This document shows positions 14,529-63,200 of a stretch of 64,000 nucleotides of DNA, one piece after another. This DNA is from Methylobacillus sp. (GTDB taxonomy: Bacteria > Pseudomonadota > Gammaproteobacteria > Burkholderiales > Methylophilaceae), in assembly GCA_031277395.1 (NCBI GenBank), contig JAITML010000033.1, positions 1 to 64,000 on the forward strand. Reading direction: 5' to 3'. The position numbers were made by a program, and so were the translations under genes. Each line of letters begins with the position of its first letter. Position 1 is the first letter of the stretch. Under the pieces are notes generated by a model. It saw nothing but the letters and a program-made list of their open reading frames with translations. It was not told where the DNA came from and made no database searches.

Positions 14529-14577
14529 ACGGTGCGAGATTCTCCCTGTTGCATAGCGAGGTGCTTGCCGCCTTGCT

Positions 14578-14937
14578 CCCTCTCCCCTTGTGGGAGAGGG
14601 GTGGGGGAGAGGGGGCATTCGCGTCCCGAATCTGTTGAAAATTGATCGAACATCCCACCAAAGCGACCTTGCTCTGGTCGGGTCTCGCCCCGACGGGCGA
14701 GGTTCTTTCTTTTGCTTGACCAAAAGAAAGAACCCAAAGAAAAAGACCCCCTGCTCCCGCGGCGCTGCGCGCTTCCCTGTGCTGCCCATCAAGCCGGGCG
14801 TCTCGCAAAAACTCGCACTGACTTTAGTCAGTGCTCAAACAGTTGCGAGCCGAAATCCCCCGTCTTGACTGCGCTGCTCGGCGCGGCAGAAGGGAGTGAA
14901 AGGCAGAGTTGTGCGCTACGCGCGGTTCTTTTTTGCA
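14578..14937. repeat. Composite intergenic repeat, copy 1 (palindrome plus structured block)
   Basis: Fills most of the 475-bp gap between the convergent metZ and tpx. From left: a CT/GA palindrome (14578-14616); a 7-bp hairpin CTCGCCC/GGGCGAG (14684-14701); a perfect 14-bp hairpin with arms 14701-14714 and 14721-14734 and loop CTTGAC; a GC-rich core; and a nested inverted repeat, CTCGCAA (14802-14808) with TTGCGAG (14843-14849) enclosing CACTGACT-TT-AGTCAGTG (14816-14833). The same block, without the nested part, recurs at 62940-63200. No convincing protein is encoded. I recall similar sequences between genes in other proteobacteria, but this needs a search. Confidence 0.85.
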
Positions 14938-14941
14938 CCCA

Positions 14942-14990
14942 GCCCCTCGCTTCGCTCTCCCCAACCCCTCTCCCATTGATGGCGAGGGGC
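14942..14990. repeat. CT/GA-rich palindromic repeat, degenerate copy, 3' of tpx
   Basis: GCCCCTCGC (14942-14950) can pair with GCGAGGGGC (14982-14990) around a CTCTCCCC-AACCCCTCTCCC core. It lies 13 bp past the tpx stop, on the side where tpx transcription would run out, and directly abuts the composite repeat. It could end tpx mRNA, although no clean T-run follows on the minus strand. Confidence 0.6.
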
Positions 14991-15003
14991 TTGTCTGTTT
15001 ATC

Positions 15004-15507
15004 TTACTTGAGCGCTGCGATTGCTGCGTCGTAATTTGGTTCCATGGTAATTTCCGCCACCAGTTCGCTGTGCAGAACCTTGTTGTTTTCGTCCAGCACG
15101 ATCACGGCGCGGGTGGTGAGGCCTTCGAGTTTGCTGCTGGTGATGCGCACGCCGTAATTTTCAGCAAATTTGTGGTCGCGCAGGGTGGAGAGCGTGGTGA
15201 CGTTGGTGATGTTTTCCGCGCCGCAGAAGCGTTTTTGCGCGAAGGGGAGGTCGGCGGAGACGCACAGTACGACGGTGTTGGCGAGCTGGCTCGCGGACTC
15301 GTTGAATTTGCGCACGGAGGTGGCGCAAGTGGGCGTGTCTATGCTGGGGAAAATATTCAGCACTTTGCGCTTGCCTGCGAAGTCGGCGAGGGTGACGTTT
15401 TGCAGGTCCTGATTGACCAGCGTGAAATCGGGGCCGTTCTGGCCGGGTTGAGGAAAGTTGCCGCCGACGTTGACGGGGTTGCCTTTGAGGGTGACGGTGC
15501 TTGCCAT
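15004..15507 (-). CDS. tpx: Thiol peroxidase (Tpx-type peroxiredoxin)
   Basis: Reduces hydrogen peroxide and organic hydroperoxides using thioredoxin. The 167-residue length is that of the Tpx family. The peroxidatic cysteine lies in [13 protein letters not shown] (near residue 60) and the resolving cysteine in RFCGAENI (near residue 94), the normal pair for Tpx. The ATG at 15507 follows AAGGAG (15517-15522 on the opposite strand) at good spacing; a longer frame from 15579 has no homology. The gene is convergent to metZ and divergent from gyrA. Confidence 0.96.
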
Positions 15508-15600
15508 GTTGAATCTCCTTGAGCGATTGATGTGGGAACCGGTGGTTATCATGCGGCAGAGCGCAGGGTAATTCAACAATGAGGAAAAGAGGGGTTTAGG

Positions 15601-62846: not shown

Positions 62847-62939
62847 TTAAGTGAAAATTGAATTGCCAAGCATCCAAAGCCTCTCTCCTTGGATGGGAGA
62901 GCGTGGCGAGAGTCAATACCATCGTGTGAGGAAGCCCCT

Positions 62940-63200
62940 CGCCCCTTGTGGGAGAGGGGTAGGGGAGAGGGGGCATTCGCGTCCCGAGCCTGCCGAAGAA
63001 TAAACGAACATCACAGCAAACCAACCTTGCTTTAGTCGGGACTCGCCCCGACAGGCGAGATACTTTCTTTTGCGTGCTCAAAAGAAAGTATCCAAAGAAA
63101 AGAGCACCCTGCTTCCGCGGCGCTGCGCGCTTCCCTGCGCTGCTCGGCGCGGCAGAAGGGAATGAAAGGCGGGGTCGTGCGCTACGCGCGGTTTTTTGCC
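62940..63200. repeat. Composite intergenic repeat, copy 2
   Basis: Fills most of the 372-bp gap between wrbA and purB. It repeats the 14578-14937 element: CT/GA palindrome (62940-62968), GGGGGCATTCGCGTCCCGA, CTCGCC/GGCGAG hairpin, a perfect 14-bp hairpin (arms 63059-63072 and 63079-63092) and the GC-rich core ending GCGCTACGCGCGG. The nested inverted repeat of copy 1 (about 95 bp) is missing. As in copy 1, the element lies just 3' of a minus-strand gene. From 62838 to 62939 there is only a further degenerate CT/GA palindrome (about 62877-62902). Confidence 0.85.

Follow-up and report, generated by a model that had tools for sequence, protein, structure and literature searches.

An interspersed, non-coding repeat of the mobile type occurs twice in the window analysed here (64,000 nucleotides of a Methylobacillus sp. 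contig), and its arms probably fold, most likely as RNA, with a triple-helix pseudoknot at the 3' end. Strong comparative evidence indicates that the folding strand (hereafter the T strand, minus in both window copies and complementary to the strand first read) forms an H-type pseudoknot made up of a stem S1, a second stem S2 paired with the hairpin loop, and a third strand. The first-pass annotation had described two intergenic blocks sharing a hairpin with compensated outer bases. Both blocks were found at the coordinates it gave, each with a perfect 14-bp stem and a 6-nt loop (14701-14714/14721-14734 and 63059-63072/63079-63092). The outer bases differ as described (GGTTC/GAACC in copy 1, GATAC/GTATC in copy 2), and the minus-strand genes tpx (15004-15579) and purB (from 63210) end just next to the respective blocks. 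The conserved hairpin therefore stands, but it makes up one half of a pseudoknot that also has a third strand, and it folds on the opposite strand. The features are as follows.

14578-14937, minus strand: copy 1, whole block, a composite of a flanking CCCTCTCCC repeat and the element
14677-14701, minus strand: copy 1 outer GC-rich hairpin, CTCGCC/GGCGAG (alternative GTCGGG/CCCGAC)
14701-14734, minus strand: copy 1 stem S1, 14 bp with a 6-nt loop, from pair counts over 74 copies; purine arm 14701-14714, pyrimidine arm 14721-14734
14735-14743, minus strand: copy 1 third strand L1, TTTTCTTTG, from base-triple covariation
14745-14748, minus strand: copy 1 S2 5' strand, partner 14717-14720 in the hairpin loop
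14749-14895, minus strand: copy 1 body domain (P0, H1, H2, internal loop, H3), with the conserved internal loop CTGTTTGAG/CGAGTT
14749-14765 with about 14880-14894, minus strand: copy 1 closing helix P0
14787-14799 with 14857-14871, minus strand: copy 1 variable helix H1
14799-14811 with 14840-14851, minus strand: copy 1 helix H2
14815-14834, minus strand: copy 1 hairpin H3, GCACTGACT/AGTCAGTGC
14905-14929, plus strand: terminator-like GC hairpin and T run at the body end of copy 1
62940-63200, minus strand: copy 2, whole block
63035-63059, minus strand: copy 2 outer GC-rich hairpin
63059-63092, minus strand: copy 2 stem S1, 14 bp, and loop
63093-63101, minus strand: copy 2 third strand L1, TTTTCTTTG
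63103-63106, minus strand: copy 2 S2 5' strand, with loop 63075-63078; 4/4 pairs, TGCT/AGCA

Copy 1 keeps S1 and L1 and only two of the four S2 pairs, and its outer hairpin, read on the plus strand, gives a terminator-like stem followed by TTCTTTCTTTT. In copy 2 an internal deletion between two GCGCTGCTC repeats has removed most of the body. Elsewhere in the window's genome H3 reads GCCTTGGC/GCCAAGGC in place of GCACTGACT/AGTCAGTGC. That the outer hairpin forms a second pseudoknot at the same time (GTCGGG/CCCGAC together with CTCGCC/GGCGAG) seems unlikely, since the loops look too short; GTCGGG/CCCGAC may instead be an alternative pairing. The blocks as first delimited need correction: they are composite because their flanking CCCTCTCCC/GGGAGAGGG parts belong to a separate repeat family. 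These palindromic CCCTCTCCC...GGGAGAGGG repeats lie at 14575-14617, 14941-14991 and 62935-62972, stand beside many copies of the element and recur genome-wide. The terminator-like hairpin with its T run is found in five own-genome copies, where it is read on the complement of the folding strand, and not in other taxa.

The pseudoknot consists of an S1 of 13-14 bp, a covarying S2 of 4 bp, an L1 of about 9 nt, no L2 and an L3 of 2 nt. S2 emerged from copies in other taxa, where the hairpin loop complements a segment some 10 nt past the hairpin; it is exactly 4 bp long and occurs in many sequence types, including TCGC/GCGA, GGTC/GACC, TGTC/GACA, TAGC/GCTA, TGGC/GCCA and CACC/GGTG. Watson-Crick pairing at its four positions reaches 87, 88, 81 and 76%, against 75, 38, 37 and 45% after shuffling, counts that are not probabilities because the sequences are related. 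Across 74 diverse 49-mers, in some of which the S1 core pairs are partly fixed because retrieval used hairpin-based patterns, 96.8% of the pair cells of the whole structure form, compared with 78.3% when shuffled and about 52% when slid. Both-sided changes occur in 14 of the 18 pairs, and covariation is 0.466 versus 0.123. The wider search that the first-pass annotation had proposed thus bears out its view that the fold itself is conserved, beyond the sequence. Mismatches on the T strand are 20 G-T to 1 A-C in S1 and 6 to 4 in S2; this excess, together with the agreement of the triple code described below, identifies the T strand as the one that folds.

Between S2 and S1 lies L1, a 9-nt pyrimidine strand that reads TTTTCTTTG in most copies and mirrors the S1 purine arm CAAAAGAAAG, with T opposite A and C opposite G when the two are read in parallel. 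The proposed position of this strand is the S1 major groove, where it would run parallel to the purine arm. The pyrimidine-motif third-strand code comprises T.A-T, C+.G-C, G.T-A and C or T.C-G triples, the last two known from DNA triplexes. Compensated changes in S1 come with changes in L1, as in the stem/L1 variant pairs AAAAT/TTTTG, AAACG/TTTCC, AAGAG/TTCTC, ATAAG/TGTTC and ACAAG/TCTTC, and further in GAAAG/CTTTC, AAAGA/TTTCT, AAATA/TTTGT and AAGAA/TTCTT; matched longer variants are CAAAATAAAG with TTTTGTTTG, CAAACGAAAG with TTTCCTTTG and CATAAGAAAG with TGTTCTTTG. L1 obeys the code (T.A-T, C.G-C, G.T-A, C.C-G) in 10 of 11 distinct stems. A scan free of any code gave 80/95, against 63.5 ± 3.3 for shuffled sequences, a value reached by 0 of 20000 shuffles. 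Open pattern searches across 187 genomes belonging to the window's own family found a code-matching L1 base in 25 of 33 genome-level stem variants, with a pooled code score of 535/560 (shuffled, 493 ± 3.3). Exceptions are G with G or A at position 5, a subfamily with A opposite A, and T with T at position 7. In Endozoicomonas (locus L080, 3244-3292) a G.T-A triple appears at another stem position (CAAATAAAAG with TTTGTTTTG); this case is independent of the family in which G.T-A first appeared. The two ends of the element at locus L043 differ from each other, and each is self-consistent in stem and third strand. A duplex alternative, in which the complement of L1 pairs with the left arm, was rejected because the L1/stem variants break such pairing, and drift free of selection does not account for the changes either. 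Since the third strand changes to match each stem change, the aligned copies show that evolution preserves this putative triple helix.

In Proteobacteria about 200 nt precede the knot, and the hairpin belongs to a fold of about 220 nt with further covarying helices. P0 closes the body domain directly before S2 (7.1 against 5.7 ± 0.1 shuffled), H1 is a variable and strongly covarying helix (7.8 against 4.5 ± 0.4) and H2 is weaker (5.2 against 4.2 ± 0.2), all on 17-90 non-redundant sequences with bodies that differ between phyla. Joint sequences conserved in the body are GAGYARCGCAG, present twice, and CTGTYTGAG/CGAGTT. The predicted fold of one own-genome copy has an energy of -98 kcal/mol (z = -2.7). 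The Quinella body consists of two hairpins, unlike the proteobacterial one; in many Quinella copies (L210-L228) degenerate GACGCAGTCAGCAAC quasi-repeats lie 3' of the knots. Loci L213, L214 and L226 are internal-deletion derivatives that retain just the start of hairpin 1 and the last purine arm (CATTGCCGGCAAAAGAAAGTAG). Comparative analysis thus demonstrates S1, S2, the L1-S1 triples, the folding strand and the helices P0, H1 and H2 as parts of the predicted structure.

In the window's genome (2.14 Mb on 84 contigs) the element is present about 13 times, and the 10-bp core hairpin is intact in eight of these. A reversed-pattern control yielded 0 matches, which puts the repeat far beyond chance. 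Three copies are broken by an insert of about 160 bp in or beside the loop, and others are internally deleted. The insert has CGGAGCTTCTGCACGA inverted ends, and at least two copies have it at an identical position in the S1 loop/arm, forming a repeat within a repeat (L014:1554-1715, L018:1547-1709 and L011 about 1440-1502, on own-genome contigs C69, C47 and C66). Another palindromic repeat, GTAGGATGGGTGGAGCCGAAGGCGATACCCATC, adjoins two different copies of the element (L002:1370-1460, L005:1370-1470).

The same hairpin occurs in at least four phyla (Pseudomonadota, Bacteroidota, Bacillota and Fusobacteriota), so that the first-pass remark on similar sequences in other proteobacteria was correct and the actual spread is wider. 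A scan of species genomes with a 28-base hairpin pattern found at least 119 stretches; the matches listed are mostly from beta- and gammaproteobacteria (among them Variovorax, Polaromonas, Thiobacillus, Dechloromonas, Methylomonas, Methylobacter, Avibacterium and Rheinheimera) and also include Bacteroidota, Negativicutes (Quinella and other Selenomonadales), one clostridial MAG and others. With up to two mismatches allowed, copy number rises to 43 in a 1.8-Mb Quinella MAG, and a Polaromonas has 42. Further carriers among plasmid and chromid records are Paraburkholderia, with about 40 places in each record, Burkholderia, Pasteurella and Pseudoalteromonas, as well as the fusobacterium Ilyobacter. 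For stem variants, an evenly drawn set of 369 genomes from the class was unproductive. A phage origin was rejected: phage records had no similarity to the element, and 2.9 million viral contigs gave only 3 + 1 matches.

Among copy pairs within 1.2 kb, 33 of 46 are inverted with the knots facing outward, at distances of 313-626 bp (with a single outlier at 963 bp), and the inverted identity extends through the arms. Full-length copies elsewhere measure about 400-660 bp and have long imperfect inverted arms; the window copies are mostly half-length, and Quinella has single arms, some as direct tandems. Protein coding was rejected: Pfam gave no match for the ORFs that overlap copy 1, and the longest inner ORFs of inverted-pair elements span 0-105 aa, with none common to the elements. 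In P. caribensis and relatives an inverted-arm element of about 660 bp lies between two genes, and P. phymatum has the same flanks with the site empty of the element, these flanks being too diverged to delimit a target-site duplication; in MBA4 a further copy lies nearby. In a same-genus genome the tpx locus has a peroxiredoxin gene where the window has the element. Turnover is not extreme, since two congeneric genomes have orthologous copies in common. Being short, non-coding and multicopy with terminal inverted repeats (the arms long and imperfect), the element resembles a MITE. The evidence that it is a mobile-type repeat is good, and the mobile (MITE/REP-like) role that had been listed among several proved right in kind. 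Reverse transcriptase RVT_1 (PF00078) and Y1 transposase (PF01797) are both missing from complete genomes with several copies of the element: RVT_1 is absent from carrier genomes G021, G025, G029, G036 and G037, and Y1 is also absent from the window's genome, G025 and G036. Neither correlates with carriage, and both were rejected as obligatory partners; no related autonomous transposon was found as a partner for the element.

The gene context of 213 copies, determined with a simple gene caller, is convergent in 77 and divergent in 18; between codirectional neighbours the folding strand is sense to both in 54 and antisense to both in 64. A cruder gene caller gave a similar picture. The element therefore lies preferentially at the 3' ends of genes and shows no preference for either strand. 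Orientation relative to genes being unbiased, the shared orientation that had been noted at tpx and purB does not generalise and is coincidental or at most local. No constant site 5' of same-strand genes, as expected of a riboswitch or cis-regulatory leader, was seen among the 213 copies. Comparison across genomes thus demonstrates that close copies usually form inverted pairs, that the element has no conserved ORF, that copies are scattered without strand preference, and that one orthologous site is filled in some relatives and empty in another.

Like the element, REP/BIME, ERIC, BOX, Correia and MITE-like repeats are short, non-coding, intergenic and palindromic, and their mobility is unknown or borrowed. 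To our knowledge none of them has a pseudoknot or base triples. In contrast to REP/RAYT systems, several genomes that carry the element lack a Y1 (RAYT-type) transposase. ENE/MALAT1-type triple helices are found in plant and fungal transposable-element RNAs as well. They share with the element a U-rich strand, U.A-U triples near the RNA 3' end and an occurrence in mobile elements; however, they clamp a poly(A) tail or a genomic A-tract, whereas the purine strand of the element is the 3' arm of its own stem and its host is bacterial. Bacterial H-type pseudoknots with a major-groove third strand are also known from the SAM-II and preQ1-II riboswitches. Riboswitches lie 5' of the genes they regulate, in a fixed orientation and with a conserved ligand core; the element, by contrast, is multicopy, has no strand preference and is free in sequence where pairing is kept. 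The guanidine-III riboswitch (PMC5696562) is likewise a bacterial H-type pseudoknot with its third strand in the major groove, and the connectivity of the element (short S2, long L1 on S1, no L2, 2-nt L3) is of the telomerase and guanidine-III type (PMC5696562). The core pseudoknot of telomerase RNA is H-type, with a U-rich first loop that occupies the second stem's major groove parallel to the purine strand, as in the element. The element differs in being a bacterial interspersed repeat with a longer stem and 8-9 continuous triples that include G.T-A and C.C-G, and no telomerase protein is known here (telomerase is reviewed in PMC5855555).

Rfam covariance models gave no match above their curated thresholds for the window or for 14 loci from other taxa, and none for copy 1 at a lax threshold, the core sequence of the element occurs in no open-access paper in a relevant context, and literature text searches returned no description of such an element. 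A 2024 survey lists 250 mobile or repeat motif candidates (PMC11109978). One of these, MRSC-65-2, resembles the element in having many copies per genome, inconsistent orientation, a covarying stem and a range of many phyla; it was rejected as the identity of the element since it consists of one long stem carrying UYCCGG repeats (PMC11109978). The bare repeat may be among the roughly 250 MRSC motifs, of which MRSC-65-2 was the one compared, with its tertiary fold unrecognised, and absolute novelty is for that reason not claimed (PMC11109978). At L164 (about 1095-1125) and L168 an MRSC-65-2-like ATTCCGGC...GCCGGAAT repeat adjoins copies of the element.

In the proposed explanation each arm, read outward on the T strand, would form a structured nucleic acid, with RNA the likeliest kind; in Proteobacteria the 3' triple-helix H-type pseudoknot would be preceded by a multi-helix domain of about 200 nt. 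Transcripts leaving the element, or read-through from neighbouring genes, would have their ends close to the knot, and the knot would obstruct 3' exonucleases in the manner of the MALAT1, ENE and telomerase RNA triple helices. Copies would spread by means of an enzyme supplied in trans; only well-folded copies would do so, and old ones would decay. RNA is favoured as the folded molecule because of the large body domain and the geometry. A bolder version, in which an unrecognised bacterial mobile element encodes a telomerase-like triple-helix RNA in its inverted ends and spreads across phyla through that RNA or under its protection, is possible, if doubtful. Single-stranded DNA could fold similarly, as G-T is the mildest mismatch in DNA too and the G.T-A triple is best documented in DNA triplexes. 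The outward 3' strand might then be recognised by a transposase or recombinase, as in IS200/IS605, REP/RAYT and integron attC. Every strand of a full copy ends 3' in a knot because full copies are inverted pairs with knots outward, and this layout, the random orientation, the mobile-type distribution and the DNA precedent for G.T-A all suit such a role. We nevertheless consider it unlikely: the Y1 transposase is missing from the genomes named above, the proteobacterial domain with its conserved internal loops goes beyond the needs of known single-stranded DNA sites, and a 9-nt loop over a 13-14 bp stem better suits the A-form geometry of RNA.

The element could also act in cis as a module in the 3'-UTR of tpx, purB and other neighbouring genes, serving as a terminator or stabiliser. 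Its sense orientation next to both genes, the excess of convergent over divergent gene pairs, and the outer hairpin with TTCTTTCTTTT, which scores as terminator-like on the plus strand, are consistent with this, and an inverted pair would serve both directions. However, codirectional neighbours show no strand preference, the element is not kept at the tpx locus within the genus, and avoidance of promoters accounts equally well for the 3' bias, all of which makes such a role quite improbable. Very improbable indeed is an ordinary REP/MITE hairpin repeat whose triple pattern reflects shared ancestry. Copies within genomes are related, and low-complexity purine/pyrimidine tracts could match by chance; yet the eleven different stems come from several phyla and nearly all come with a third strand that fits the particular stem, the combinations T with G and C with C are not produced by simple duplication or duplex pairing, and the ends at L043 differ while each remains self-consistent.

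Under the favoured reading of a mobile-type repeat with folded arms, a complex conserved fold lies inside a repeat that many genomes carry in abundance and that is usually dismissed as 'intergenic'. Base-triple covariation this clear is rare in nature; evolution has in effect carried out triple-helix mutagenesis and recovered the chemists' pyrimidine-motif third-strand code, including G.T-A and C.C-G. If transcribed, the element would represent a large new class of structured RNA; if not, it would be a folded-DNA recognition device.
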